The position numbers and the translations under genes are program-made. From a virus: a DNA stretch of 25,714 nucleotides. The stretch spans positions 1 to 25,714 of IMG/VR virus record IMGVR_UViG_3300006916_000338; one strand, given 5' to 3'. The notes under the pieces are model-generated. The model made no database searches. It worked only from the letters and a program-made list of their open reading frames with translations, and was not told the DNA's origin. How positions within the stretch are numbered: the stretch's first letter is position 1; each line of letters begins with the position of its first letter. Below are positions 841-21,964 of the stretch, piece by piece.

Positions 841-1223
841 TATTCATCTCCCGCCCACTTGCGATACGGTGTCGCTGGTGCATCTACGGTTGGCAGTGAA
901 GCCACCTGTTCATCTGTTAGCTCTTCACGAAGGTTTGCGTGGTAGCCATCAACAGCTTCCATCTCGGCATACTCCATGCCCTCACCGTCAGTCAGCATAG
1001 TGCCTGTCGCACGATACATGGTGCCGATGATGTCGAGCATGGGCGTGTCCGCCATCCACTCGTATGCGCCGCTGGGGCCATCCCACTCAGCGTCTGGCTC
1101 TAAGTCATCAGGACGACTATTGAGTGCATCAGTGGGATCATACTCTTTGTGTGCCAGCGATGCAGCTTCTAGGGCTTCCCAGAGTGCCACTTCGGAGGGG
1201 GCTTTGAGGTAATACGTTGTCAT
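840..1223 (-). CDS. Fibre-associated protein, possible assembly chaperone (127 aa)
   Basis: An acidic, Tyr/Trp-containing 127-residue protein with no membrane segment. The C-terminal stretch DGYHANLREEL followed by ASLPTVDAPATPYRKWAG resembles small proteins often encoded next to fibre genes in alphaproteobacterial phages and prophages. By analogy these may aid fibre folding or cap the fibre, but nothing in the sequence proves this. The start has GGAG nine bases upstream. It lies 3 bases downstream of the large CBM/LamG fibre gene and its stop overlaps the next start (TAATG), so it is co-expressed with both. Confidence 0.65.
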   Translation of the reverse strand: MTTYYLKAPSEVALWEALEAASLAHKEYDPTDALNSRPDDLEPDAEWDGPSGAYEWMADTPMLDIIGTMYRATGTMLTDGEGMEYAEMEAVDGYHANLREELTDEQVASLPTVDAPATPYRKWAGDE

Positions 1224-1226
1224 AGC

Positions 1227-3185
1227 TTATGCCTCCGTCATGGCTTGTAGGGTGGCTGATGAAAGTGCCTTTGGGTATAGGGCAACTTTACTAATGTGCG
1301 CACATTTTCTACTTACAGCGTTAAACGTTCCGTATCCTATGGTTAGTTTAATATCATCAGGAGTTGCCGCTAAGAAGGTGATACCTCCATCGCCATTGTC
1401 AACACTTGATATTTCCCCGTTCATTGCATAGTACACAGGAACAGTCCCAGATGTTCCTTCCCACGAGATTGCTATCCTGTTTTTACCGTTTAAGGGGCTA
1501 ACTCCTGAATTAATATCGCCGCCGTGAGTTGGCTGGTAATACCCACTAGGGCTATTAGAATAACCAACACCAAGATAGTTATTATTATCCTTACCTATTG
1601 AAGCAGCAAATGCAGCCTTTGTGTTGTCTGGGTCATAGATTGCGTCAACTTGGAATGTGCCTTCAATAGTGTTGATGTAGTTCAGCATTGTAGCTTCAAG
1701 GATTTCGGCAGTATCAACCGCCCTAGTCACAGTAGACCCAGAGGTGGGGATGTATGACGTTGGAAAGGAGCCGACTTCTACTTGTGCGCCCCAGACGTAG
1801 ATGCCTGAGTAGCCATCGCCATCATATGAAAGTGAACCATTTTGAGCGCATGAATATACAGCAATGTTTGGGGTTCCTGTTGAGGCTGTTGTTACTGTGA
1901 TAGAGCAACGATACCACCCATTTCCCACATCCTCCATTGAAGTAGGTGGGCTATTCGTTGCCGTCCCGACAGTACCGTTCGACAAATTATACCAAGTCCA
2001 GTAAGAGGTTGATCCGCTGTAGATGTTTAATGCTAAGTAATCACGCTCTGCCTTTTTTGCGAATAAAGACAACGTGTAGGTAGTGGACGCCGACATAGGT
2101 GGGAACGTGACCATGCTGTGGCTAATGCTTGCAGTAGTGTTTTCTTGTATTTTATTGCCAGAAAGAGTGCCGTCTGGAGCAACAACTGCAGCAGTAATTA
2201 GTGAAGAATTTGAAGTAGAAAAGTTAGAAAGATCACCAGACTGCGTCAGCAAATTCGTCCGAGCTTCCTCAATCAGCAGCCCTTTGCTTTCACCTGTCAC
2301 TGGATCGTGGTCAAACCGTGCCTCACCGGATGCCGCTGTTTGCAGCACTGGCTGGTATTTCACGATGGGGCTAGAGGTTGTCGCTGTGTAGGCTGTGGCG
2401 GAACTGCGCTGTTCTAGCTGGAACCCCCAGATAAAGAACTCAGAGCCTGACGCAATGTTAGTAGCTGGCGCACCGTTTCCTGTGCTGTCTGCAAAACTAG
2501 CGTCAACAAATATAGTTTGCGCAGTGCCTGCTGATGTCCCAGAAAACGTTACACGATACCAGCCATTGCCCACATCTGTTGTTGTTGGAGTGCCTTCATC
2601 TGTACCCACTGTAGTGCCGTCTGAAAGATTTATTGTCCTAGCAGATATTGTGTCAATATAACCATTGCCGCTAGTCCTTGACTGCATATTTACACGAACA
2701 TAATCCCAGTTTGACTTCTTCAAGTACACGCTTGCAGTGTACGCTGTTGAGGCCAATCCTACGGGGCTTTGAGCCACGTTTCGATATGGACCTTCAGTTG
2801 TAATCTCAATTGTATTAGCTGTTGTTGTTCCATCAGGCGCAGTTGTTGTATTAGCTGTACTTGTTGTGCCAGAACCTGCCCAAGGCGAAAGTGTCGTATT
2901 CTGACTGTAGGTAATCAAATTCTCCTCTGCCTTAGCCGTGGTCTTACCATCCCAGTAAGTCGCAGTGGAGCCACGGGTAAACGTGATCCGTGGATCAAGG
3001 GTCTTGCTGTTCGCAAAGTCTAGCAGAAGGGACGGGCGAATGTCGGGGAGGTCAGCAGTATTGTCTAGCTGGTTAAGTTCTGCAGCAGATGCAGTGAGGT
3101 CACTAATCTCTGATACACTAATAGCCCCATCAGCCAGTGGATTACCCGCTGCGATTAGGTTTGCTAAGTCTCTTGCTTTTGTCAT
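1227..3185 (-). CDS. Tail fibre with two carbohydrate-binding-like modules and a C-terminal LamG-like domain (652 aa)
   Basis: Predicted receptor-binding adhesin. After an N-terminal helical region (residues 1-50) comes an ITFTRGSTATYWD segment near residue 70. Two homologous beta-sandwich modules follow, at about 95-260 and 317-485. Each contains a DVGNGWYR motif and ends in a WGxQxE strand (WGFQLEQ and WGAQVEV), the pattern of CBM4/9-like carbohydrate-binding folds. A link with EARTNLL lies between them. The last 160 residues resemble a concanavalin A/LamG lectin-like domain. The duplicated module suggests multivalent sugar binding on the host surface. GAGGATAACTAA before the ATG is a good ribosome-binding site. 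The domain names are recognised from motifs and not from a search; a structural adhesin role is likely. Confidence 0.8.
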   Translation of the reverse strand: MTKARDLANLIAAGNPLADGAISVSEISDLTASAAELNQLDNTADLPDIRPSLLLDFANSKTLDPRITFTRGSTATYWDGKTTAKAEENLITYSQNTTLSPWAGSGTTSTANTTTAPDGTTTANTIEITTEGPYRNVAQSPVGLASTAYTASVYLKKSNWDYVRVNMQSRTSGNGYIDTISARTINLSDGTTVGTDEGTPTTTDVGNGWYRVTFSGTSAGTAQTIFVDASFADSTGNGAPATNIASGSEFFIWGFQLEQRSSATAYTATTSSPIVKYQPVLQTAASGEARFDHDPVTGESKGLLIEEARTNLLTQSGDLSNFSTSNSSLITAAVVAPDGTLSGNKIQENTTASISHSMVTFPPMSASTTYTLSLFAKKAERDYLALNIYSGSTSYWTWYNLSNGTVGTATNSPPTSMEDVGNGWYRCSITVTTASTGTPNIAVYSCAQNGSLSYDGDGYSGIYVWGAQVEVGSFPTSYIPTSGSTVTRAVDTAEILEATMLNYINTIEGTFQVDAIYDPDNTKAAFAASIGKDNNNYLGVGYSNSPSGYYQPTHGGDINSGVSPLNGKNRIAISWEGTSGTVPVYYAMNGEISSVDNGDGGITFLAATPDDIKLTIGYGTFNAVSRKCAHISKVALYPKALSSATLQAMTEA

Positions 3186-3197
3186 TTAGTTATCCTC

Positions 3198-3665
3198 TTA
3201 TGCAGGCTTTACAGGCCAGTCAGCCTCATTAAGGTTTGGAAAGTTAGCGTGGCTTGTGATGTCCCTCAGTGCCTGACGATATGTTGCCCATGCTGTAGCA
3301 TCTACGGGGGCGTCAGCTACTTGTGTCCAGTCAGATTGCATTAAAAGATTATCACGCTGCCCACGATTAGACAAAGCAACGCTATCGTCCCACGCCTGTG
3401 TCTCTTCAGCGGTCTTGCTTGATGTAGTCCAGCCAACAGTCCAAGCGCCAGCAACCAAAGATGGTGTAGCTTCCTGTTCAACCTTCTGTGTACGGTCATC
3501 GATGCTAGGCATGTCTGTATATACAACAGTGTATACGCCATAGCTTTCAAGCATCTCACTAGGGATTTGCTTTGGGAACGAGGTGTTAGAGTTGTCACGG
3601 CGTAGTTGCCCTACGGAATAGGGGTATGTATCTACACTACCGCTTGTAATTTTGACGAGCGACAT
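3198..3665 (-). CDS. Tail fibre assembly chaperone-like protein (155 aa)
   Basis: The C-terminal half contains RGQRDNLLMQSDWTQV, APVDATAWATYRQALRDI and FPNLNEADWPVKP. This is the signature of the small phage tail assembly chaperone family (R-LL--SDWTQ--D then W--YRQ-LRD). Members normally sit beside tail fibre genes and help them fold or trimerise, and this one lies between two predicted adhesin genes. The N-terminal 60 residues (MSLVKITSGSVDTYPY onward) match the usual front part of such proteins. AAAGGAG precedes the start. It is cytoplasmic during assembly and probably absent from the virion. Confidence in the family is fairly high, while the fibre it serves is inferred. Confidence 0.75.
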   Translation of the reverse strand: MSLVKITSGSVDTYPYSVGQLRRDNSNTSFPKQIPSEMLESYGVYTVVYTDMPSIDDRTQKVEQEATPSLVAGAWTVGWTTSSKTAEETQAWDDSVALSNRGQRDNLLMQSDWTQVADAPVDATAWATYRQALRDITSHANFPNLNEADWPVKPA

Positions 3666-3683
3666 TTAAGTCTCCTTTTGTGT

Positions 3684-4781
3684 TTAACCGAAGTCTTTGT
3701 AGGCTATGCCAGCACACGTTGGGCCAGATGTGGGAAAACCAGTTAAAACGGGATCAGCATACTTGCTCCCAAAACCTGTTGTGGAGTCAAACTCATATGC
3801 GTTCATTAGTTTGGCGTTGTTTACACCAAGAAATACGACATCTCCCGCTGTATTAAAGGCAACATTAGTGCCTGTGGCACTTGCAGGAGAGGCAGTGCTT
3901 GACAACTCTGAACCTAAAGTGCTTGTCGCATTATCCCACGCAAAAGCCTTTACATAAGGGTAGGTGTTTGTCGCAACAACTATAGCTTTATCATCAGGTG
4001 AAAACTGTGCATCATACGGATAGAAAGAGAACGAGGGTGACACATTTGTCCCAAGCCCCGTTACGTCATTCCATGTATAAATCAATAACCTTTGTGTAGC
4101 TGTGGCAGTCACCGCAGAAAACATTACATGGTCACCAGCACTGTTCCAACTAACACGGTACTGTCCACTTACATTAACCGCAGTGTCTTCTTCTGTACCG
4201 TAGCCAGAGCCAGTCCACTTAATAACTTTAGCACGATTAGATACTGTACCAATCCAATTATCAGTATTAGACCAAGCTATACCTTTTGCCTCTTGCCCAC
4301 CCAAAAAGTTACTTGTGTATCTAGCCCCAAAGCCACTTGAGTCAGACCATTGATAAGTGTAAAAGTTGTTGCTGCTAGTATTTGATGCTAGAGAAACAAA
4401 ACTGCCAGAGTTGCTAAAAGCTAATCCTGTTGCACTACTACCTGAAGGTAGACTTGAGGGGTTACTGTATTTAGCACCCAATGCCCCTCCAGCAAAAGCG
4501 TAAGCAGACACAAGGGGTGAGTCAAAGTGAGTAAACACAATCGCACCACCATCACCTGACCAACCAACCTGACCTTGAGTAGCTGGTCTATTGGGAGGAG
4601 CTGTTGATCCTGCTGGAATATTTTGATACGTCCCAAACCCATCGTTTTTGTTAAACGGTATGACAACAAGAGAGTTCCGTAGGTCTGAAACAGTACCACT
4701 ACAAGCAATCGCAACATACTGCTCTGTTTCACCACCAGCACCAGCCGCTGCGAGTGCGGCAAGTTTACTAATCACACTCAT
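3684..4781 (-). CDS. Beta-propeller-like virion protein (365 aa)
   Basis: The protein consists of about six or seven repeats of roughly 45-55 residues. Each has a pattern like WSxxGxxxxF or AFSxSGxFVS followed by YxWxxxxGFGxxYxxP (for example GGALGAKYSNP, SSGFGARYTSN, TTGFGSKYADP). This is the look of a WD40/YVTN-type beta-propeller. I chose the ATG at 4781 because it overlaps the upstream fibre stop as ATGA; a start further upstream at 4814 would intrude into the fibre gene. The N-terminus (MSVISKLAALAAAGAGG) is helical and may anchor it to the particle. The function is unknown; its position between fibre genes suggests a peripheral adhesin or receptor-binding component. No sialidase Asp-box is convincing. 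Confidence 0.65.
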   Translation of the reverse strand: MSVISKLAALAAAGAGGETEQYVAIACSGTVSDLRNSLVVIPFNKNDGFGTYQNIPAGSTAPPNRPATQGQVGWSGDGGAIVFTHFDSPLVSAYAFAGGALGAKYSNPSSLPSGSSATGLAFSNSGSFVSLASNTSSNNFYTYQWSDSSGFGARYTSNFLGGQEAKGIAWSNTDNWIGTVSNRAKVIKWTGSGYGTEEDTAVNVSGQYRVSWNSAGDHVMFSAVTATATQRLLIYTWNDVTGLGTNVSPSFSFYPYDAQFSPDDKAIVVATNTYPYVKAFAWDNATSTLGSELSSTASPASATGTNVAFNTAGDVVFLGVNNAKLMNAYEFDSTTGFGSKYADPVLTGFPTSGPTCAGIAYKDFG

Positions 4782-7700
4782 GCTAATGCAGCCCCAGCTT
4801 GGAAGCCGTACCATGTAGTACCGCCATCGTAGGTGATAAAGACCAGCACATTAGTCTCGCCACTAGCAGGTGAGTCAGGAGCAGTACCACCTGCCCAATC
4901 AACAGAGCTAGGCCATGTCAATGTATGTGTGCCGCCAGCCGTTACCTTGAGTGTGAAGCCAACAGAACGCCCTGAAGTAACACCAGCAAAAGTGAAAGTA
5001 GTATTACCAGATGTGCTAATAGCAAAGCCACCCGCTGTGTCAGCATCAATGCTAGGCGTAGTGCCTGACAAAGCTGTGTAACCTTCTTGAGTAGTGCCTA
5101 CATAGCCAACGCCAGAAAGGTGGAGGTCTTTGAAGCGGTTGCTTGATGAGCCAAGATTTATAGCAGCATCTCTAGCGCCTCCATTAGTACCTCTTGGTAC
5201 CATATGAGGGCCAGCGGGATCAAATAACAAAGTTACATCAGATTTACCAATGTAAGGTAAGCTAACGTAAGACCCAATACTCCCCACAGTGGTGCCGTCT
5301 TTGTAGAAAGTGGCAAGGTCTCCATCACTGTTAAGGCGTGACAATATTAATGATACATCATTGCTAACGGCTGACCTGACCCCATCAACACTAGATATAA
5401 CAGTGCCAGCAGTATTTACGCTGTTTACGGTTTTACCAACATACAACTTACCGCTGCTGTCAATATCTACATAGGAAGTACCCGTATTAGCGTTCCTAAA
5501 ACTTAAAGTTGAATCAGCATTTACGTTTGATTTACCTATAGCGTAATCGGTGCCGGGGCTTGAGCTAAATACTAAAGACCCAAAACTTGTGTTTGAGCCT
5601 GTAGCGTTTGAGTCTCTTATTGTAGCTAAAGCACCAGATGTTGCTTGTGGAACGCCGTACAGATAGAATAATGAACTTTGGGCTGTAGTACCAATGGTGA
5701 GTTTATCAGAAACCACAGTACCTGTTACGTCAATTCCTGTGGCGTCAGTGTTTAAAACAGTAGTTCCGTTATGTCGTAACTGTGCGCCAGCATCGTTTTG
5801 GAACAAGGCAATCGTTGACCCATCGCCGTCTTCGATGCGAACCTCATTTCCCCTAATCCGCAAGTCGCCAGTGCCTTGCTCATATATATAACTTGTTGAC
5901 CCTGTATGATACACCTGCAAATCCGCAGACGCACCAAAAGTCGCCTTCACGTTGTCGCCGTAAGCCAAGTTACCCGTCATAGTATCGCCAGCTACTTCTA
6001 CGTAACGAGCATCAGCCTGTGACTTAGTATAAGTATCAGCTACTACAAATGTACCATAAGCTACAATGTCTACGCTATCACCTGCTGTAGCACCTGTAGT
6101 CAACACAACGGATGTACCACTTGTAGCAGTAAAGTCTGTACCACTGATAAGCTTCACACCGTTTAGGTATACATCTACATAGCCGGGGTCATATGTAACA
6201 GCAAAGGTAGTCTGACCAGATGTAGCTGTATAAGTCTGACGTTCAGCTGTACCGTTTACAGATGAACCAGCAGCCTGCCATCCAGAGCCGCCGTAGACAT
6301 ACATGATGTCAGTCGTAGTATTGAAGTACAAAGCACCAGTAATAAGTGCATCACCGTCATTGTCTAACGCAGGAGCAGAAGCCTTAGCACCTAAGTAACG
6401 ATCATCAAAGTCATCGTATGATGCAGCGGCATTGGTTGCAGAGGTTGCAGCTGCAGTAGCAGAGTTACCTGCATTAGTCTCACTGGTAGCAGCATTGGTA
6501 GCTGAGGTAGCAGCAGCAGTAGCACTAGCAGAGGCAGCAGTAGCTGAACCAAGTATACCATCTACATATGTTTTAGTTGTAAGGTCAGCAGCATTAGTTG
6601 GGGTGTGAGTAGTTGTAATTGGTGAACTGCCCATATTAATGGAACCTGTCATGGTTCCACCAGTCAGAGCTAAGAATGTAGTGTCAGCATAGTTTTTGGT
6701 TGCTGCGTCCTGTGCTGCAGTAGGATCACCCAAGCCAGTAATCTTACTTGTACCCATAGCAATAGCACCAGTCATAGTGCCACCTGCCAGTGGTAACTTA
6801 GTAGCAATGCTAGTGGTTACAGTGTTTGCAAAGTCGGCATCATCGCCCAGCGCAGCAGCTAGTTCGTTTAGTGTGTCCAGTGTGCCGGGTGCAGAGTCAA
6901 CCAAGTTAGCTACGGAGGTATCTACATACCCCTTAGTTGCAGCATCATTTGTATTAACTGGTGTAGTCAGGTTAGTGATGGTAGCTGTAGTACCAGCATT
7001 CATATTCAACGTACCATTAACCGTTACGTCTTGGAACGATGATGTACCTGTAGAAGTTACGTTACCTGTCAGATTACCTGTGACATTACCAGTTACATTT
7101 CCAGTGACGTTACCTGTTACGTTACCAGTAAGTGGACCTACAAAGCTAGTACCTGTAACGGTTGTACCTGTTATAGCTGCAGGACTTGCTGCACCAATAA
7201 TAGCACCGTCAATAGCCCCACCATTAATATCAACAGTCGCCAAGGTGGCTTGTCCAGATGTCGATACAGTCGTAAAGCTACCAGCAGCAGCACTAGAAGC
7301 ACCAATAACTGTACCATCAATATTACCTGCGTTAATGTCTACTGTAGCTAGTGTAGTTGTACCAGTAGCTGACAGTGTAGTGAAAGCACCTGTAGAGGGA
7401 GTAGAAGCACCAATAGTGGCATTATCAAGAGTACCACCGTTAATGTCTGCAGTAGCTGCAGTAAGACTTGTGTTGGCTGCAAGTGTGGTAAATGTACCAG
7501 CTACAGGTGTAGTGTTACCGATAACTGTATTGTCTGCTGCACCTGAGTTAATGTCGGCAGAAGTAATTGTTGCTGTGCCTGTGAAAGTAGACGTACCTGT
7601 TACAGCAAATGTACCGCCTACTGTAGCATTACCTGAAGCATCCATAGTGGTAAAGTCTGCAGCAGCGGGAGTAGTCCCACCGATAGCTGTACCATCTATT

Positions 7701-14783: not shown

Positions 14784-15000
14784 TTTTTAATACTTCGTCT
14801 CTAAGTAATTTCAATCTACGTAATTGATAGATTGCACCTTGTGCTCTGTGTACTGCAACTATATTATCGGACTGTTCCATAGAACGATGCTGTTGAGCAA
14901 TAATATAATCTAAGTATTCACTAAAGTCAGCCCACTGCTGGTGGTTGTTGACCAGCGGCTTGAGCTTGTTGAGGTGCTCCTTGTCCTTCTGCATTTCCAC
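14776..15000 (-). CDS. Small conserved protein encoded after the portal (74 aa)
   Basis: A helical protein with LNKLKPLVNNHQQWADFSEYLD and a C-terminal RAQGAIYQLRRLKLLRDEV segment. The pattern is familiar from small genes following the portal in marine podoviruses, where the role is unknown. The gene starts inside the portal gene and overlaps its end by 74 bases in another frame. Two starts are possible: a GTG at 15000 with AAGGA four bases upstream, or the ATG at 14994, ten bases from the same AAGGA. The stop overlaps the start of the 643-residue gene by eight bases. It may be a scaffold or packaging accessory; this is inference from location only. Confidence 0.65.
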   Translation of the reverse strand: MEMQKDKEHLNKLKPLVNNHQQWADFSEYLDYIIAQQHRSMEQSDNIVAVHRAQGAIYQLRRLKLLRDEVLKNG

Positions 15001-17050
15001 TGAATCCTTGTTCTTGTGGTGTAGGTACTTGGCCCGTACCTATGTTACCGCCACCTGCTCCAGTTGGGTCCATAGGGTTACCACCTTGTACTGGAGGTTG
15101 TTGTTGTTGAAAACCCTTCATGAGTTCAGCTTGAATTGCAGCTTCATCCATGTTATTAGTTACTTTGTCAGGGTCTAGTTCAAGAGACTTTGCAATCTCA
15201 CGTATAATATACTGGAATTTTGCAAAAGGTGCAAGGGTAGGATTAGAAGAAATTTGCATAAATTGCATTAATCTTTGACTACGTACTTCATTAGCCATAA
15301 GACTTTCTGTGCCACGAGCTTTAACTTCTAAGTCACCTTTGATATTTGGATCAAAGTCAAACTGCATGTTAAAGCGAAATAGACCTTCGCCTAGTGGACG
15401 CAGTAGGTAGTCATCTACATTTTTAATAACACTTTTAATGCCGCCTTGTGCAGCACCCATAAGCATAGAAATACCTGAAGCTGTACGTCCTACACCTGAC
15501 ACACCTGTTTGACCATGTGCAAAAGATGGGAAGCCTGTGCTTTCATCTGCAAGTACACGTGCCTTATCAAAAAGCTGTAGGTTTTCGCCGGATACGTTAG
15601 GAAACTTAGTACCAAAGATAGCTTGGCCCGGTGCACCACCCTGTCTGCGGAACACTTTACCGGGGTACACTGACATGTCTTGTCCCGGTACAAGGTTAGT
15701 TTCATCTACTTCTAGGATCAAGTTACCTGACAGTACGGCATTATCTACAGCCATACGCATGAAACCATTCATAAGTGTTTGAGTATCGTCCATGTTTTCG
15801 GCAATACCTACACCAAAGAATGAGTAAGGGTTTAATTCATATGGTGCAGCCATGTAAGGAATACGTGCAGGTTTAAATGGATTAAGAACCATACGCAGCA
15901 ACTTACCGTTACAAATCCAAACGTTTGCCTGTAATTCATCCACTTCAGATAGTTCATCTGGAATGTCTACGCCTTGCTCTAGTAGCATATCAACGTCTAC
16001 CATACCCCAGTACTCTAAAACTTCAAAACGTTCTATACCGTGGTCAGGAGAATAATCAGATAGATCATCTTCCCAATATTCTTTAGTGTAGTTTTCACCA
16101 AGTTGAATTGCTTCATCAATTACATTAGAACGAAAGAAAGGTCTACGCTTAAGACCACGCAATTGACTACGTGACATCTTATGACGTTCAATTACGTACT
16201 GAGCTTCATCCATGTTTGTTGCATCTGGGTCTGGATAAAAGTTCCAAACTGATACATGAGATACCTGTGGAATAGTTTTAATACTAGGTGAGTATTCACC
16301 ATCCTCATTCCAACTAGGGTATTCTTTGTCTACAGCAAACGGACCCTTCATAACACCAGTACCAAACAGTGCCATCTCAAAGGCAGTACTACGCAAGTGT
16401 TTACTTGCACCGGACTCTTCTAGCTGGTCATGTATTTTCTTCTGCATCATTTTAGCGGCAACCATAGCTGGGCTAAATGTAACAGAAGTAGGTGTTTTAC
16501 CTGCACCCTCACGGACGTTATCAACACCTTCAAACTTATTCTTTAGTGGGCCTAAACTTTCGGCAAGTGTCTTTGCAGTTGCACCTGCTGGTATATCACG
16601 ATTATCACCGGGATAACCGTATGGGCTTACCTCTTCTTCTAAGCCTGATTCACGCAACTGTTCTGGCTCTGCAGGGTCAAAACTAACATCTGCAACTACA
16701 CCTTCCGGTAGTTCAGTAGGGTCTACAGACAATGGAAACTTTTGTGCCGCAAATAGTACATCTACAATCTGACCATACGCAGCAAGTGTTTTTGTTTTAG
16801 TAACTTTAATAAACACACGAGACTTTTCAGCCTCTGTAAACTGTACGTCTGGACTGTATAGACCACGATAGTTTCGATAAGAACGTAACCAACGTTGCTC
16901 ATCTTGCTGTCGGTAGTCATCTGCACGGTTATATTTTTCCATAATAAATGGAATAATATTAGAAGTGTCGGCATCATCAACAGATGAATCATCACTATCT
17001 TCTAGTGCAATAGCTTCATCTTCGATAAAGTTGTCGTTATCTTCTGCCAT
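14927..17050 (-). CDS. Portal protein (707 aa)
   Basis: Dodecameric head vertex ring through which DNA is packaged and ejected. Evidence: length near the usual 650-750 for P22-like portals, position right after the large terminase, and portal-like blocks such as QDEQRWLRSYRNYRGLYSPD (about 45-65), DVLFAAQKFPLSVDPTELP, HVSVWNFYPDPDATNMDEA (near 270) and NPYSFFGVGIAENMDDTQ (near 430). The region from 520 to 600 has SGVGRTASGISMLMGAAQG and VDDYLLRPLGEGLFRFNMQ, typical of the portal crown/stem area. The N-terminal 30 residues are acidic and the last 50 are Gln/Pro/Gly-rich and probably disordered. AAGGA precedes the ATG. The 3' end overlaps the next small gene. Confidence 0.85.
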   Translation of the reverse strand: MAEDNDNFIEDEAIALEDSDDSSVDDADTSNIIPFIMEKYNRADDYRQQDEQRWLRSYRNYRGLYSPDVQFTEAEKSRVFIKVTKTKTLAAYGQIVDVLFAAQKFPLSVDPTELPEGVVADVSFDPAEPEQLRESGLEEEVSPYGYPGDNRDIPAGATAKTLAESLGPLKNKFEGVDNVREGAGKTPTSVTFSPAMVAAKMMQKKIHDQLEESGASKHLRSTAFEMALFGTGVMKGPFAVDKEYPSWNEDGEYSPSIKTIPQVSHVSVWNFYPDPDATNMDEAQYVIERHKMSRSQLRGLKRRPFFRSNVIDEAIQLGENYTKEYWEDDLSDYSPDHGIERFEVLEYWGMVDVDMLLEQGVDIPDELSEVDELQANVWICNGKLLRMVLNPFKPARIPYMAAPYELNPYSFFGVGIAENMDDTQTLMNGFMRMAVDNAVLSGNLILEVDETNLVPGQDMSVYPGKVFRRQGGAPGQAIFGTKFPNVSGENLQLFDKARVLADESTGFPSFAHGQTGVSGVGRTASGISMLMGAAQGGIKSVIKNVDDYLLRPLGEGLFRFNMQFDFDPNIKGDLEVKARGTESLMANEVRSQRLMQFMQISSNPTLAPFAKFQYIIREIAKSLELDPDKVTNNMDEAAIQAELMKGFQQQQPPVQGGNPMDPTGAGGGNIGTGQVPTPQEQGFSGNAEGQGAPQQAQAAGQQPPAVG

Positions 17051-17060
17051 TTATTTTTCC

Positions 17061-18641
17061 TTAATAACCAAAGGTAGCATCAGCTACTCGCATTCCGTTG
17101 TAGTGTGATCCACCAGAATCAAAATCAAAAACACTAAAACGTGGTCTTGACATGATACCATATCTTAACGCATCGTACAAGTGGTCTTCTGCATGAGTGT
17201 CGATGTCTTCTGGATTTTTCTTATCAATTGGTAATGCAGGTAGCTGTGAAATAAGATTAGTACAATTTTTAAAAAACACTAGTCTAGGTTCTTCCGTATA
17301 CTCGTCTACCTGTAAGCGTCTGTGTATTTCGTTTTTACCTGCTACACGAGAACCTTTGGAGCGATCAGATGGACGCCAACGACAGCCACGTTGTATCATT
17401 TGTTCTGCAAGACTTGGCCCTGTATCACCACGTTTGTGCCAAAGCGAACTGTCCAACACACCGTACTTAATATTACCGTCACCTGCCTCTAGTTCATTAA
17501 CCATGTCGGCAAGATCAACCGCAAGTACTTTGCTAACGTATAGTTCACGGTATACAATAAGTTGTTCACTAGGGGATACAGCGAACCATATAACGCCAGA
17601 ATAACTTCCATAACCATAATCACATGCCCTAAACTTAACCCAGTTGTGTGGAATATCAAAAGGTTCAACTACGTGTACATTTCTATCGAACTCCGTAAAG
17701 GCTGCGCCCTCTTTAATATCCCAGTCACCTTCAAGCAACTGTCTACGCTGCTGCTCCGGTAGAGATAAAAGCATGGCTTCGTAGTCACCTTGCTCCGCTA
17801 GATATGGATTGTCCTTTAGTCTTGCAGGAATAAACCTACGTTTAAATAAAGGCTTACCTGCTTTAGGATGTCCAGCAGGGTACTTTAATTGCTCACCACT
17901 ATCAATATCGGTAGCTATAAACGACTCACCTGCAGGTGCAGGATCAATAAACATTTTTTTAACCCAGTGATGTCCTCTGCCGCCGGGGTTAGTAGTAGCT
18001 CTCATTGACAGTGGTAAAGCAGGGTCTGCAGTACGTAAGCGAGACCTCATGTAGTTCCACGCATAGGGCGTAGACCATTGAGTTAACTCATCAAATCCTA
18101 TCCAACTAAAAGCTAGACCTTGGTAACGTGTAACGTCTTGGTCTTTGTCTAGGTAACTTAACCACAGTGTAGCACCAGAGGGTGCAGTCCATGTCATCTT
18201 ACGTTCTGACCACTTAATACCGGGCCAAATCTTTGGGTACATTTCCTGCGACTTAGTAATAAGTTCTCTTAGTTCTTCCGTAGTATGTCGTAGTAGCAAG
18301 CCTGTAAAAGCCGGGATGCCCATGTAGCGTAACGGATCAGCCAACATGGCGTAGCTCTTACCCCCACCAGCACTGCCACCATATAGTACTTCACGCTCAC
18401 TAGACGCAAGGAAGTCAGTTTGTGGTCCTTTATTAGGCTTAAAGATTACGTTGTGTTGCTCTTCAACCTTCTGAGTAAACTCATCTACTATTACTGTAGG
18501 ATTAAGCTGCTTTGTTGCTACTGTCTTTTTCTTTTGCGCCGATACGTTTACTTTCGATTTCTTCCGCTTTGGCGATTGCCTTTTTCGCATAGTCTGCCCA
18601 TCTGCGTAGGCTTCCAGCTTTGTTTTTTCTTTGTCGCTCAT
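17061..18641 (-). CDS. terL: Terminase large subunit (526 aa)
   Basis: DNA-packaging motor. The ATPase half has a Walker A, GGSAGGGKS (residues 88-96), a Walker B, IGFDE (181-185), and an ATTNPGG coupling motif (215-221). The nuclease half has acidic residues in CDYGYGS (D341), GVLDSSLW (D397) and DHLYDALRY (D486, D490), as expected for the RNase H-like headful or cos-cleaving domain. The first 45 residues are basic and lie in DNA shared with the upstream HTH gene (140-base overlap), so translation may really begin later, for instance at the ATG at 18593. No strong RBS is seen for either. The stop lies 10 bases before the portal start. Confidence 0.93.
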   Translation of the reverse strand: MSDKEKTKLEAYADGQTMRKRQSPKRKKSKVNVSAQKKKTVATKQLNPTVIVDEFTQKVEEQHNVIFKPNKGPQTDFLASSEREVLYGGSAGGGKSYAMLADPLRYMGIPAFTGLLLRHTTEELRELITKSQEMYPKIWPGIKWSERKMTWTAPSGATLWLSYLDKDQDVTRYQGLAFSWIGFDELTQWSTPYAWNYMRSRLRTADPALPLSMRATTNPGGRGHHWVKKMFIDPAPAGESFIATDIDSGEQLKYPAGHPKAGKPLFKRRFIPARLKDNPYLAEQGDYEAMLLSLPEQQRRQLLEGDWDIKEGAAFTEFDRNVHVVEPFDIPHNWVKFRACDYGYGSYSGVIWFAVSPSEQLIVYRELYVSKVLAVDLADMVNELEAGDGNIKYGVLDSSLWHKRGDTGPSLAEQMIQRGCRWRPSDRSKGSRVAGKNEIHRRLQVDEYTEEPRLVFFKNCTNLISQLPALPIDKKNPEDIDTHAEDHLYDALRYGIMSRPRFSVFDFDSGGSHYNGMRVADATFGY

Positions 18642-18921
18642 TGTCCAACCGTTTCTTTAATCCTACGTGCGATATGGACCTGCCAGTATTTCTTGCAAGC
18701 CAATTCGCCACTTCTCGATATGAATACTGTTTAAGGTATTTCTTTGCTTGTTCAAGCATATCAAGTTCGTGTTCAATTGGCAAGAGAATTTGTGTATCCT
18801 CTGGATCAATTTCGTAACCAAAAGGAATGGTTCTTGCTACACGTGGGATTGGAACCCATTCATTATCTTCTTTTAGATCGGTTGGCTGTGGAAGTTTCCA
18901 CGTACCTACTTTCTTAGTCAT
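18502..18921 (-). CDS. HTH protein encoded between the terminase subunits (139 aa)
   Basis: Contains IPRVARTIPFGYEIDPEDTQ and a helical core with a helix-turn-helix look: YSYREVANWLARNTGRSISHVG followed by LKKRLDNERQRK. This part resembles recombinase/resolvase-type HTHs. The C-terminal third is Lys/Ala/Glu-rich and helical. Three consecutive ATGs open the frame (18927, 18924, 18921); AGGA fits the last one best. The 5' end overlaps the small terminase gene and the 3' end overlaps the large terminase by 140 bases. It may be a second DNA-recognition factor for packaging. The HTH is well supported, the role is inferred from position. Confidence 0.7.
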   Translation of the reverse strand: MTKKVGTWKLPQPTDLKEDNEWVPIPRVARTIPFGYEIDPEDTQILLPIEHELDMLEQAKKYLKQYSYREVANWLARNTGRSISHVGLKKRLDNERQRKNKAGSLRRWADYAKKAIAKAEEIESKRIGAKEKDSSNKAA

Positions 18922-19288
18922 CATCATCCTGTGGGTTTTTAGCTGGCATTAACATAACACCACCCTTTGCCTCTACTTGCATCTTTTCAGTTTTAACCAA
19001 ACCTGTACGATCAAGTAATTCTTTAGCTGCCTGCATCTTATCACGAATACCTAGCTCTGTAGGATCATATAGCGCACCCACCATAGCCATTGCAGCTTTG
19101 GGGGCGTTACGTGCAAGGTAACTATGTGTCACATCAATAATCTCTTCCTTAAGACTATTTGTAACTTCAGTGTTAGAAGTATTAGCTGAGTAACCCGCCA
19201 ACATTTTAGCGGAGGTAATGTCACCACCCGCTTCATCCATAAGGACAGCTAAGAACTTTTGTTGACGCTCAGTTAACTCACGTGCCAT
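18914..19288 (-). CDS. terS: Terminase small subunit (124 aa)
   Basis: Recognises the packaging site on the viral DNA and hands it to the large subunit. The N-terminus LTERQQKFLAVLMDEAGGDI followed by SAKMLAGYS is the classic HTH of this family (LT-KQ-KF----- ... A--AGYS). A central helix pair includes SYLARNAPKAAMAMVGAL and IRDKMQAAKELLDRTGLV, the oligomerisation part also seen in relatives. The tail is acidic (DDDD end). AAAGGAAG lies upstream of the ATG. It is immediately upstream of the HTH gene and the large terminase, in the same transcript. Confidence 0.8.
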   Translation of the reverse strand: MARELTERQQKFLAVLMDEAGGDITSAKMLAGYSANTSNTEVTNSLKEEIIDVTHSYLARNAPKAAMAMVGALYDPTELGIRDKMQAAKELLDRTGLVKTEKMQVEAKGGVMLMPAKNPQDDDD

Positions 19289-19301: not shown

Positions 19302-19754
19302 TTACATTAACTCGAAATGTGGGCCATCAATAAATGGTCTACGGCCTTGGCTACGGCGTAAGTCTACGTATGCCATCATTGCATCTTCAGCTGTACCTGC
19401 ATAAGTACGAATGTCACCCTCTGACCAAGCTGCACCCCACTTAATGGCTACACCAAGTTCCTTAGCTGCCTCTTTCATTGCGTCACAAAGATCATCATAG
19501 ACATTGAGTTCCCATACGCCCTTACCATCTACGTAAGCCATAAGGTCTACGGCTCTACCTTCTAGGTGTTTGGACTTCATAGTCTGGGACTTACCTGCCG
19601 CTACAAGTTTCTCTTGCTCTTCTACTGTGCGTAGACCATAGATAACTCCAAAGTCTACCTTGGTTAGCTCAATAGCACGTTTGACTACAGCGACTAGTTT
19701 CTCATCTACGCCTTCCATCTTAGCTAGGCTACGACTTGATAGTTTAAATGCCAT
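19302..19754 (-). CDS. Endolysin: M15-type L-alanyl-D-glutamate endopeptidase (150 aa)
   Basis: Cuts peptide stems of peptidoglycan at lysis. The zinc-binding pattern of M15 peptidases is complete: SKHLEGRAVD (H63, D70) and DGPHFEL (H146). YGLRTVEEQ near residue 40 matches the conserved arginine segment upstream. The region between the tryptophan-containing KWGAAWSEGD and the last histidine is about 20 residues longer than in compact members and includes TAEDAMMAYVDLRRSQG. There is no signal peptide, so export depends on the holin encoded just upstream on the same transcript. The RBS is weak and translation may be coupled to the holin gene, which ends two bases before. Confidence 0.88.
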   Translation of the reverse strand: MAFKLSSRSLAKMEGVDEKLVAVVKRAIELTKVDFGVIYGLRTVEEQEKLVAAGKSQTMKSKHLEGRAVDLMAYVDGKGVWELNVYDDLCDAMKEAAKELGVAIKWGAAWSEGDIRTYAGTAEDAMMAYVDLRRSQGRRPFIDGPHFELM

Positions 19755-19755
19755 A

Positions 19756-20112
19756 TTATTTTTTACCTGTAAAGAATTTAGATACTGATCTCATACCAAT
19801 GCTTGCACTTACAATACCACCCAGTGAATACTGATACCACGTAGGCATAGACTCAAGGGATGCAAAGCCAGCCTGTACAATTTGGTTACCCCAGTCACCA
19901 CAAAATGCAAGGATAAGAGGAATACTAAATAACAAAGTAATCCACTCGTCCTTCCAAGAGTTCTGGGTACTGTTCATTGCAGCAATGTCCCAGTCAAGCT
20001 CACCTGTTGCTTGCTTAACACGGATTTCTGCATTGGCTTTTTGTATTGCTACCTTACCGTCAAGGTAAGAAGAAGCAAGACCACCTACTGCACCTATGAT
20101 CTGACCTATCAT
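19756..20112 (-). CDS. Holin of the three-transmembrane, gene-transfer-agent type (118 aa)
   Basis: Forms lesions in the inner membrane that let the endolysin out. A Gly/Ala-rich N-terminal segment (residues 1-17, MIGQIIGAVGGLASSYL) precedes a hydrophilic stretch and the WKDEW motif (53-57), which I recognise from the GTA_holin_3TM family. Hydrophobic helices follow at about 58-74 (ITLLFSIPLILAFCGDW) and 92-110, with a basic tail KFFTGKK. The family is typical of alphaproteobacterial phages and gene transfer agents. The start overlaps the upstream stop by four bases (ATGA). Neighbouring endolysin and membrane genes support the role. Confidence 0.82.
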   Translation of the reverse strand: MIGQIIGAVGGLASSYLDGKVAIQKANAEIRVKQATGELDWDIAAMNSTQNSWKDEWITLLFSIPLILAFCGDWGNQIVQAGFASLESMPTWYQYSLGGIVSASIGMRSVSKFFTGKK

Positions 20113-20354
20113 TTATTATAACTCTCTTCGTGTACTACACGTGTTGGTGTTACTGTAGTCTTAGACTCTTTGCCCATCCAGATACCAAAACATCCTGTGA
20201 GAGCGCCCATACAGACTGATACAAGGCCAGACTGTGCTACACTAGGATCAGGTAGTGACATAAACCAGTGTACCGCTTGATACGTCAGTACAGTGACTGC
20301 CAGCATCATAAGCCGAGGTAGTACTTTCCAATCGTCTAGTACTGTATTAGCCAT
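20109..20354 (-). CDS. Small two-helix membrane protein of the lysis cassette (81 aa)
   Basis: Hydropathy shows two membrane helices at about residues 12-34 (LPRLMMLAVTVLTYQAVHWF) and 41-62 (QSGLVSVCMGALTGCFGIWM), with a short polar link and a hydrophilic C-terminal tail of 20 residues. It is translationally coupled to the holin (ATGA) and to the gene upstream (TAATG). It could be an antiholin, a second holin or a spanin partner; it has no lipobox and no long periplasmic domain, so spanin is least likely. I do not recognise a named family. Confidence 0.7.
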   Translation of the reverse strand: MANTVLDDWKVLPRLMMLAVTVLTYQAVHWFMSLPDPSVAQSGLVSVCMGALTGCFGIWMGKESKTTVTPTRVVHEESYNK

Positions 20355-20611
20355 TACGTCCTCCGAAAACGTTTAGCCGTTTTAGCTGCCGCTTTAGGTT
20401 GCTTAGAAAATTGTTTACCCGCTTGAGTATCTTTTCTTTTCTTAGCTGTACTTGCTGCATACTCTTTGTTAGACATAGCTTTAATAGCGCCAGCCGGAAG
20501 GTAACGCTCTCCAGTAGCTTTTGGACCTTGTGTAGAAGGTTTACCACTTTTGGTTCTCCAGTCTTGTTTCGTCCATCTATTAAGACTTTTTTGTGATTTG
20601 GATAGGGCCAT
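20354..20611 (-). CDS. Small basic protein, DUF5872-like (85 aa)
   Basis: A Lys/Arg-rich protein with KSQKSLNRWTKQDWRTKSGK, then GERYLPAGAIKAMSNKEYAA and a TAKKRKDTQAGKQFSKQP tail. The motif set SLxxWxxQxWRTKSGK ... GERYLP ... KKRxDTxxGKQFSxQP is one I know from many marine phages and large DNA viruses and recall as DUF5872. The function is unknown; the charge suggests nucleic-acid binding. Its start overlaps the stop of the 62-residue gene (TAATG), and its stop overlaps the next start, so it is one of a coupled string of small genes. Confidence 0.75.
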   Translation of the reverse strand: MALSKSQKSLNRWTKQDWRTKSGKPSTQGPKATGERYLPAGAIKAMSNKEYAASTAKKRKDTQAGKQFSKQPKAAAKTAKRFRRT

Positions 20612-20799
20612 TATTTATAGCCCCCACCTTTTGCTTTGTATTGCTTTGCAACCATTTGTGCCTTACGTGCGCTCCACTGTCCGGGCTTTCCACCTTTGCC
20701 ACCAGCTTTAACAGAGGCAACAAGACGCTTGCGCATAGTAGGCTTAGTATAATTACCTGCCGCATTAACCGTTGAAGATTTTTTGGGAGATTTCGCCAC
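20611..20799 (-). CDS. Small basic conserved phage protein, GTG start (62 aa)
   Basis: Encodes AGNYTKPTMRKRLVASVKAG and GGKPGQWSARKAQMVAKQYK, a short pattern widely seen in marine phages and often linked with the DUF5872-like gene. I place the start at the GTG at 20799 because homologs as I recall them begin MAKSPKKS and because GGA lies about eight bases upstream. The TTG at 20811 would add four residues with no support. The 5' end overlaps the DUF1127 gene by 35 bases in another frame. It is strongly basic and Gly-rich. A DNA- or RNA-binding role, or packaging in the head, is conjecture. Confidence 0.72.
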   Translation of the reverse strand: MAKSPKKSSTVNAAGNYTKPTMRKRLVASVKAGGKGGKPGQWSARKAQMVAKQYKAKGGGYK

Positions 20800-20914
20800 G
20801 TGTAATTCCAATATCTTTTAGTTCTTTATCGGACATATTACGAAGCAACCAATAATCTGCACGGCGTTGTTGTGCTACTGCGACTGCTTCAAACCAATTA
20901 ATTAACCATTTCAT
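20765..20914 (-). CDS. DUF1127 (YjiS-like) small protein encoded by the phage (49 aa)
   Basis: The ATG at 20914 is preceded by a strong AAGGAG at eight bases; a start further upstream lacks one. The protein opens MKWLINWFEAVAVAQQRRAD and its second half, LLRNMSDKELKDIGITRGEI, is the DUF1127 signature (L--M-D-EL-DIGI-RG-I). In alphaproteobacteria such proteins are arginine-rich and very small; some bind RNA and influence small-RNA turnover and growth control. A phage copy could act on host RNA metabolism, but that is inference. It is the first gene of a leftward run that leads into the lysis and packaging genes and has its own promoter candidate. Confidence 0.8.
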   Translation of the reverse strand: MKWLINWFEAVAVAQQRRADYWLLRNMSDKELKDIGITRGEISQKIFNG

Positions 20915-20939
20915 GTTTATAACTCCTTGTATCATGAAT

Positions 20940-20962
20940 GTATACTTACATATCAAGTATAC
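20940..20962. promoter_or_regulatory. Inverted repeat in the DUF1127 leader
   Basis: GTATACTT (20940-20947) and AAGTATAC (20955-20962) form a perfect 8-bp inverted repeat with a seven-base spacer. It lies between the predicted promoter (20984-21012) and the start codon of the DUF1127 gene. It could be an operator or a leader hairpin. A related GTGTATACTTA string occurs in the divergent region near 23690. Confidence 0.5.
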
Positions 20963-20983
20963 AAAGAAGTTATACCATAGTTA

Positions 20984-21012
20984 GTTATATCATACTATAG
21001 ACAATAATGCAA
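20984..21012 (-). promoter_or_regulatory. Promoter for the DUF1127/lysis/packaging genes
   Basis: The minus strand has TTGCAT (21007-21012), a 17-base spacer and TATAAC (20984-20989). The match is moderate, but the -10 lies within the 13-mer TAGTTATATCATA that is also present at the capsid promoter. It sits in the only sizeable gap (106 bases) in this part of the leftward gene run. Confidence 0.5.
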
Positions 21013-21020
21013 CCCCGCTA

Positions 21021-21380
21021 TTACCCTACTGGGACGAAGGTCTCAGTTACAGTAAGGATAGTGTCAATATGCCCAGCGGAAGTAGGTACGTTTTGTATCT
21101 TATCGCCCGGTTGTAGTACTAGGTCAATGTTTGTAAAGGTAATGTAATCACCTGAATTTAGACTCTTGCCTGACAGAAAGTGAGATGTGTAGTTATCAGC
21201 TGCTACGTACCACTCTACATCTACAGAGTTTGTACTACCACCACCATTAACTATGTGGATGAACGTAACCTCAGCTACACAGTTAGCAGGGCATGTATAT
21301 ACAACCTCTGTAGCGGTGCCACTATTGTGACCATACACAGAACGCATACGTGCTGGTTTACCTTGATTAAGTAAAGACAT
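21021..21380 (-). CDS. Probable small structural (beta-sandwich) protein (119 aa)
   Basis: The composition is that of a beta-rich virion protein: it has EVVYTCPANCVAEVTFIHIV near residue 25, VEWYVAADNY in the middle and LQPGDKIQNVPTSAGHIDTI towards the end. I recognise the general pattern (small decoration or fibre-like phage proteins with a CPANCxAxV strand) but not a named family. There are two cysteines close together and no membrane segment. The RBS is weak. It precedes the promoter for the DUF1127 operon and follows a block of basic proteins. It could decorate the head or tail; that is a guess. Confidence 0.6.
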   Translation of the reverse strand: MSLLNQGKPARMRSVYGHNSGTATEVVYTCPANCVAEVTFIHIVNGGGSTNSVDVEWYVAADNYTSHFLSGKSLNSGDYITFTNIDLVLQPGDKIQNVPTSAGHIDTILTVTETFVPVG

Positions 21381-21385
21381 GTAGT

Positions 21386-21964
21386 CTATTTATTCCCGTT
21401 AAGTTCATTCATATAAACTTCAAATGCAGATTTAGTTTTACCCATGTTAACTGGCAAACCAGTCTTTTTCTTTTCTGCAGGTGTCATCTTACTCCACTTA
21501 GCATAAGTTAGGTAAGGACTACTGCCCTTAAATGGTGCAGTAGTTTTTTTATTTGCTATGTACGCTTTAGCTTTGACAAGGTTTTCCTGTCTACGTCTAG
21601 CTGCATCTGCTTTAATTTTAGCATTGGCTGCATCTACTTCTCTCTTCTCGGCTACCGTCATGTCACCGTAACCATTACCTGCACGAGTTATTGTATCGGG
21701 ACGTGCTTTAGGTCGTGTAGATTTAACTGGTCTAGCTTTAGGGCGTAAGGAAGTTTTTACTGCTGCAGCTGATTCAGATTTCTTATTAGTTTTAGATTTA
21801 CCAAAATCATTGGCCCACTGAGTAAGTGTCTTACCGGACTTCTTAAGTTCCTCTGCAGTTACTGCAAGTTTCTTTGTACCCTTCTTATCATAGAAGAATT
21901 TAGAACCTGCCTTCTTTGCAGCTGCCACTGTACGAGGTTTACCAGCTAGTTTGTCCTTAGCCAT
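21386..21964 (-). CDS. Lysine-rich protein with RPKARP repeats (192 aa)
   Basis: A very basic protein. The first 60 residues alternate Lys/Ala/Gly (AGKPRTVAAAKKAGSKFFYD, then GTKKLAVTAEELKKSGKTL). The middle has two close RPKARP repeats (about residues 75-90), and later come helices rich in Ala/Lys/Arg (DAANAKIKADAARRRQENL). The end has YAKWSKMTPAEKKKTGLPVN. No enzyme motif is seen. This composition suggests DNA binding or packaging inside the head, as for other lysine-rich genes in this block. AGGAG lies seven bases upstream of the start. Function not known. Confidence 0.65.
   Translation of the reverse strand: MAKDKLAGKPRTVAAAKKAGSKFFYDKKGTKKLAVTAEELKKSGKTLTQWANDFGKSKTNKKSESAAAVKTSLRPKARPVKSTRPKARPDTITRAGNGYGDMTVAEKREVDAANAKIKADAARRRQENLVKAKAYIANKKTTAPFKGSSPYLTYAKWSKMTPAEKKKTGLPVNMGKTKSAFEVYMNELNGNK

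Follow-up and report, generated by a model that had tools for sequence, protein, structure and literature searches.

DUF1127 is a large family of bacterial proteins, and its role is disputed, with RNA binding and kinase binding as the two proposals. According to the accessible parts of two reports, members from bacterial hosts bind PhoR or RNA, and they work across distant species (PMC12501420, PMC10253847). For YjiS of Salmonella, the available part of another report describes membrane association and contact with SsrA, and no association with RNA (PMC11707872).

The short DUF1127 proteins (SDPs) of Agrobacterium tumefaciens and YjiS of E. coli and Salmonella resemble the phage protein described here in family, length (47-54 aa), DIG motif and basic helices, and also in an N-terminal helix with a hydrophobic face. 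Unlike them, the copy studied here is phage-borne, has fewer arginines and sits in a packaging gene set. CcaF1 of Rhodobacter sphaeroides is of the same family, and its host belongs to the same order as the hosts of the phages. It differs in being 71 aa long and in being followed by the CcsR sRNAs; no sRNA cluster is known behind the phage gene.

Two described mRNA leaders are relevant as well. In phage T4, early long transcripts of gene e lock the site of translation, and late ones, whose start lies within the stem, are translated efficiently, as the accessible part of PMC3014915 has it. In gene e, and also in soc, 49 and I-TevI, the Shine-Dalgarno sequence of the longer transcripts lies in an RNA helix, as is predicted here. 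The DNA encoding the 5' strand of this helix holds the -10 box of a promoter in T4 and a -10-like box here, and the shorter transcript would be free of it. Both leaders are linked to lysis timing (PMC3014915). The leader studied here differs in its gene, which is a DUF1127 gene, and is a prediction from sequence. It is an analogue and not a member of the gene e type, because its boxes are sigma-70-like (TATAAC) and not the T4 late TATAAATA. The second leader is that of duf1127_1 of S. meliloti, also a DUF1127 gene controlled by its mRNA leader, but there the leader acts through Rho-dependent attenuation and an ORF upstream (PMC12218461, accessible part).

Phage DUF1127 genes are already labelled in the records of CRP-603 (gp69), Melnitz and RHph_I1_18, as labels only. 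A literature search on DUF1127 and phages, outside subscription journals, found no paper on phage-encoded members, judged by titles and the openings of abstracts, and the term 'DUF' is absent from the main texts of the two HMO-2011-type phage papers searched. The family is known; the predicted expression switch of the phage variant looks new.

A short phage copy under purifying selection could reveal which function matters in the attacked cell, and this one is small enough for a test by one complementation experiment. Its leader would show that an abundant group of marine phages, too, times expression in the way of the T4 lysis genes. The reading preferred here, held with just under even confidence, is that a phage-borne DUF1127 gene, expressed late through an RNA lock, stands in for the short DUF1127 regulators of the host and retunes nutrient or RNA control.

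Phage identity and gene order

The whole stretch of DNA analysed, called the window below, is a 25,714-base IMG/VR virus record. Its large terminase subunit (TerL) is 83.7% identical to that of CRP-345, 83.0% to that of CRP-1 and 80.6% to that of HMO-2011, and because of these identities it is classed as an HMO-2011-type phage. Gene-order comparison finds the terminase, portal and capsid synteny of the same group. A DNA polymerase with a DnaJ insertion is another mark of this group (PMC9038755); judging by its order of structural and packaging genes, the window has no replication genes.

The host is probably a member of the Rhodobacterales. An alphaproteobacterial host had already been suggested by the initial annotation, and this holds up: TerL is 83-84% identical to that of the roseophages CRP-345 and CRP-1, and a tblastn search of 50,697 phage records with the DUF1127 protein gave 27 matches, all 27 of them in phages of Rhodobacterales-type hosts.

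Behind DUF1127 follow, all on the minus strand, phrog_17747, phrog_14910, a phrog_10198-like gene, phrog_2524, the M15 endolysin, the small terminase subunit (TerS), a further ORF, TerL and portal (Table 1). In CRP-345, the gene preceding the endolysin is annotated as spanin2 family. The gene had been described as heading a lysis/packaging operon. The gene order is right, and a single transcript presumably covers these genes.

Table 1 Features of the locus in the window.
Feature	Position	Strand	Basis or remark
Small upstream gene, 119 aa, weak phrog_1276	21021..21380	-	constant left neighbour of DUF1127
Conserved box CGGGGTTGCATTAT, contains P1 -35	21004..21017	-	exact match here only in window
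Predicted promoter P1, TTGCAT-17-TATAAC, extended TGn	20984..21012	-	conservation
P2: second -10-like box, extended, TGGTATAAC; unlocked transcript may start from it	20969..20977	-	spacing
Outer stem 5' strand TATAACTTC (predicted), overlaps second -10-like box	20966..20974	-	RNA fold
Inner inverted repeat TGTATACTTG-ATATG-TAAGTATACA	20939..20963	-	arms vary among relatives, pairing kept; fold
Shine-Dalgarno AAGGAG, 8 nt before ATG	20923..20928	-	sequence
Outer stem 3' strand GGAGTTATA (predicted), holds Shine-Dalgarno	20918..20926	-	RNA fold and pairing conservation
DUF1127 protein, 49 aa	20765..20914	-	Pfam PF06568, pN/pS, AlphaFold2 model; opens lysis/packaging gene set
phrog_17747 protein	20611..20811	-	PHROGs; overlaps DUF1127 end
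phrog_14910 protein	20354..20611	-	PHROGs
phrog_10198-like small protein, lysis cassette	20109..20354	-	PHROGs; lysis role inferred from place
phrog_2524 protein, lysis cassette	19756..20112	-	PHROGs; lysis role inferred from place
M15-type endolysin	19302..19754	-	Pfam and PHROGs
Terminase small subunit	18914..19288	-	Pfam and PHROGs
Terminase large subunit	17061..18641	-	Pfam, PHROGs, identity to relatives
Portal	14927..17050	-	relatives with portal annotated at matching place

The protein and its family

Open reading frame and Pfam searches place the gene at 20914-20765 on the minus strand, with an ATG start. The product matches PF06568 with an E-value of 5.5e-8 and 32.9 bits, against a curated (gathering) cut-off of 23.3 bits in Pfam. 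A profile search was the check named initially for the assignment to DUF1127, and it confirms it. A chance match is ruled out by this score together with the relatives, as 42 of 42 aligned ones also match PF06568 at E<=0.1. The L..DIG.xR core is present, with L24, L32, D34, I35, G36, R39 and I42 invariant in 20 phage proteins. A TTG start, giving 63 aa, is ruled out too: relatives keep the ATG, and in some of them a stop codon stands only a few codons before it. In PHROGs, the protein matches phrog_26566 alone, of unknown function (E 0.012), and a search of NCBIfam with it gave no match.

The gene is under purifying selection. Across 25 unique relatives pN/pS is 0.168 (~0.17), and it is 0.178 in the 149 of 300 pairs with pS <0.5.

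The AlphaFold2 model of the protein has helices at residues 2-25, 29-35 and 39-47, with a mean pLDDT of 81. No PDB structure is a significant fold neighbour of this model (best E 3.2, SAM domains), and a PDB sequence search gave weak SAM-domain matches alone. Among predicted folds the neighbours are weak, and are viral DUF1127/YjiS-like models (best E 0.022). There is only a hint of a SAM-like fold.

Arginine is a hallmark of the family, with a mean of 14%, although it is outside the Pfam definition (PMC12501420, accessible part). The window protein has 4 arginines in 49 residues (8.2%), or 4 in the 37 of the domain. Domains of HMO-type phages have 10.6% arginine, versus 17.3% in 54 host domains. 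Most of this gap is filled by lysine: arginine and lysine together amount to ~17.5% in 69 HMO-type domains and 19.6% in the 54 host domains, and the basic make-up is kept. The shift from arginine to lysine may be explained by the A+T-rich phage genome.

One clade of 77-79 aa proteins has a conserved N-terminal extension that starts with MYLTYDYPSQ (loci L037-L077, for example L042, 2991-3230).

Conservation at the locus and spread among phages

A protein search in IMG/VR gave 233 encoding stretches, and 80 loci were retained. A second sample was selected by TerL, which avoids selecting on the gene itself, and consists of the best 80 of at least 598 loci. Here DUF1127 lies between the left neighbour and TerS in all 21 loci containing both, and is present in all 13 further loci that have another upstream gene only. 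This means that it is at its place in 34 of the 34 loci reaching that place, among the best 80 of at least 598 by TerL. Loci showing neither marker contain it in 7 of 46 cases; many such contigs begin inside the cassette.

The lysis cassette is downstream of DUF1127 in the window clade and upstream of the left neighbour in other clades. Whichever side the cassette takes, DUF1127 stays beside the left neighbour in this comparison of clades. As a side observation, the promoter and DUF1127 look like a fixed unit, and the cassette like a module that moves around it (L018-L061 and others).

Among described HMO-2011-type phages, a profile search of whole records finds the domain above the cut-off in CRP-3, -9, -13, -207, -345, -603 and -738, and tblastn finds it in CRP-1, -2, -212 and -235. 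That is 11 out of 11 CRP HMO-2011-type roseophages among the matches listed (7 by profile, 4 by tblastn). The same search of whole records finds no DUF1127 in HMO-2011, which has a SAR116 host, or in the SAR11 phages HTVC033P and HTVC115P. Within the group, the gene therefore follows the host: it is present with Roseobacter-type hosts and absent with SAR116 and SAR11 hosts. Those HMO-2011-type phages that infect the Roseobacter group carry DUF1127 as a fixed gene at the head of the packaging set (here the lysis and packaging set). In the record of CRP-13 the ORF (4992-5156) is overlooked, and TerS alone is annotated there.

Outside this group, matches above the cut-off in whole records are found in the Cobavirinae CRP-5, SIO1 and P12053L, the Autographiviridae CRP-118 and CRP-403, and CRP-7. 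They are also found in the Sinorhizobium phages phiM12 and Phosso, Agrobacterium phage Atu_ph07 (two copies), Ochrobactrum phage OspM_OC, Rhizobium phage RHph_I1_18 and the Methylophilales phage Melnitz-3. CRP-171 and CRP-114 score just under the cut-off. All DUF1127-bearing phages searched infect alphaproteobacteria except Melnitz, and the phage copies are mostly unannotated.

Some single records deserve mention. The DUF1127 gene of Melnitz-3 (2393-2611), with a Methylophilales (betaproteobacterial) host, is the one clear case outside the alphaproteobacteria. The classic roseophage SIO1 (AF189021) has an unannotated DUF1127 ORF at 2992-3171, flanked by gp19 (MazG-like) and ribonucleotide reductase. 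A search with YjiS of E. coli matches only three records, all Salmonella-derived, of which two are 501-kb bacterial contigs and one is an unannotated 6-kb phage-named record.

The family occurs in 51 of 142 sampled genomes from the class of a Devosia genome, many of them multi-copy. A tree of 96 domains (37 columns) joins all 27 HMO-type rows in a single clade (SH-aLRT 96) and places the other phage copies elsewhere. Judging from these sequences, repeated capture from hosts is likely, with the well-supported branches forcing one origin only.

Promoter and leader RNA

The initial annotation gave the gene its own promoter. This agrees with what is found in relatives, where the predicted TTGCAT-17-TATAAC recurs upstream of the gene; a second copy of it was not found in the window. 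Out of 92 unique upstreams, 51 combine a P1-type promoter with two TATAAY boxes of which the second is preceded by TGn. A single TATAAY box is seen in 30, and none in 4, each of them from a phage that is not of the HMO-2011 type. TGn precedes the second box in 15 of 15 leaders chosen by a GTT or GAAT 3' end, and in most predicted folds of these it has no pairing partner. The box RCGGGKWTKSMAW was rejected as a multi-copy regulator site, given at most 2 matches per record in 12 records with a pattern that missed the window clade.

It is conceivable that the upstream repeats are DNA elements, be it tandem -10 boxes or a 15-bp direct repeat read by a phage regulator, together with a palindromic operator, and that RNA pairing is incidental. 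The boxes TATGRTATAACTAARTATGRTATAACT do form a 15-bp direct repeat, and the last two boxes keep this spacing in 52 of the 58 unique upstreams that have two or more. However, the inner inverted repeat has 44 different arms in 68 unique leaders, which pair without a kept sequence, and a bound operator would not allow this. In 38 of these 68 the repeat beats shuffles at the 5% level. When halves are exchanged between relatives, its score falls from 18.0 to 12.4 in the window clade; for the other clades the fall is from 11.8 to 8.0. Nearly all other starts in the window, moreover, are not folded like the DUF1127 leader. DNA elements are accordingly regarded as an improbable account of the repeats.

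The preferred reading is a lock in the RNA, and it starts from the Shine-Dalgarno sequence. The ribosome-binding site, AAGGAG, had been called strong; in a transcript from the upstream promoter, however, it is predicted to be base-paired. In the window clade TATAACTCC would pair with GGAGTTATA, in another clade CTATCTC with GGAGATAG, and in CRP-9 CTACTCC with GGAGTAG. The minimum-energy fold of the window has a longer outer stem and a partly rearranged inner stem.

The outer stem is invariant in 22 unique leaders of the window clade, and in other clades its two strands have changed in concert. If the two main clades exchange arms, the duplex scores drop from 24.7 and 21.7 to 14.8 and 18.0; in a smaller clade, C, the A arm fits as well as its own. 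Another within-clade count found one two-sided change among 8 outer-stem pairs. Given that the pairs hardly vary within a clade, such counts neither support nor weaken the stem, and the covariation rests on the comparison between clades.

There were 71 unique leaders, of which 4 were dropped for having no Shine-Dalgarno sequence at the chosen start, and 67 were folded. Of these, 64 fold better than shuffles (z < -2). The Shine-Dalgarno sequence is predicted to be unpaired with a mean probability of 0.20, versus 0.49 in shuffles; at the 5% level for its access, 33 of 67 leaders pass and 34 do not. In two leaders (L038, L039) it is open, at 0.98. Within the window, the DUF1127 leader has the lowest z (-4.06) of 26 starts with a true start codon, and 24 of the other 25 have z > -2. 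The gene at 21386-21964 on the minus strand, starting at 21964, is the second one in the window whose ribosome-binding site is predicted to be hidden (z -2.69, unpaired 0.09).

For the short transcript, the fold assumes a P2 start 7 nt after the second TATAAC, at about 20962. With the arm removed, the predicted unpaired Shine-Dalgarno rises from 0.20 to 0.85, and 58 of 67 leaders gain more than 0.4. At 15 C the rise is from 0.19 to 0.78.

A hairpin at this location could also serve mRNA stability, by shielding the message from 5'-end-dependent RNase E, and have nothing to do with the timing of translation. In the window clade the inner hairpin would begin at or near the assumed P2 start, which fits. 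Such a shield leaves the pairing of the Shine-Dalgarno sequence with the -10 arm unexplained, however, and stability as the explanation is given little weight.

The promoter and the lock are predictions from sequence, and the predicted lock is absent from the initial account of the gene. A search of the window against Rfam found no family. An RNA model built on one clade (R1) matches almost only directly before DUF1127, with the window clade weak or unscored, and has no match in HMO-2011, HTVC033P and HTVC115P. No lock of this kind is seen in front of the DUF1127 genes of other phage groups, so the lock would be a trait of the HMO-2011-type group and not of DUF1127.

Possible role during infection

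Under the proposed lock, the arm in read-through RNA, or in RNA started at P1, would pair with the Shine-Dalgarno sequence, and the DUF1127 gene would be shut. P2 lies on the arm; its RNA would lack the arm, start at the inner hairpin and be translated. Since P2-started RNA alone would escape the arm, the gene is presumably silent in read-through RNA and the protein made late. An early take-over protein is disfavoured by the late position of the gene and by the predicted lock on its translation. The HMO-2011-type phages include temperate ones (PMC9038755, accessible part), and the lock could therefore also silence the gene in a lysogen.

The phage protein would then replace the host's own short DUF1127 regulators. 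This short, basic, three-helix protein with its amphipathic first helix may dock on a host partner, which could be a membrane sensor kinase such as PhoR, or RNA. Docking would retune the nutrient or RNA control of the host during virion filling. The partner and the effect are suggested by analogy with the family.

Two narrower roles have been weighed. The first is that of the initial annotation, which saw manipulation of host RNA metabolism: the protein would bind phage or host RNA as CcaF1 does, and alter mRNA or sRNA processing. The accessible part of PMC10253847 describes CcaF1 as RNA-binding and reports that microaerobic growth is impeded when it is overexpressed. In RHph_I1_18 the gene lies within an RNA-repair cluster (995-4900) with a CCA-adding enzyme, a Thg1-type enzyme, an RNA ligase and PNK, and the copies of Phosso and phiM12 are near tRNA genes. 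CcaF1 is one line of evidence, but YjiS is described without RNA association, as noted above, and the phage copies have less arginine, the residue linked with RNA binding in CcaF1, partly as an A+T effect. The copy in the window also has no RNA-processing genes as neighbours by Pfam and PHROGs, and Rfam finds nothing in the window. An RNA-turnover effector is thus possible but on the whole unlikely.

The second is a phosphate or nutrient switch: late in infection the protein would turn off the Pho response by binding PhoR. The accessible part of PMC12501420 reports that an Agrobacterium mutant regains pstS control with DUF1127 proteins taken from three other species (24-72% homology), and that Agrobacterium and E. 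coli members bind PhoR. The predicted long first helix of the AlphaFold2 model is in line with this. In Cobavirinae and in two roseophages of the Autographiviridae, MazG and class II ribonucleotide reductase enclose the gene tightly, with overlaps; in Cobavirinae it is also near PhoH. Against such a switch, the genes around the window copy have structural and lytic functions. Phages also usually profit from more, not less, phosphate uptake. It too seems a doubtful candidate, neither better nor worse than RNA turnover. The phage neighbours point both ways: Cobavirinae and Autographiviridae have MazG and ribonucleotide reductase there, and RHph_I1_18 has RNA repair.

A broader version of the preferred reading takes DUF1127 as a recurrent class of phage-made host regulator in unrelated groups of alphaproteobacterial phages. 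In HMO-2011-type phages, a promoter-inside-stem lock would make it strictly late, and perhaps the whole packaging set with it. This we put forward with some hesitation, as possible and less probable than the reading for this locus.

As a minor observation, the record of the Sinorhizobium jumbo phage Phosso has an annotated tRNA-Pyl(cta) at 6057-6132, near its DUF1127 gene.
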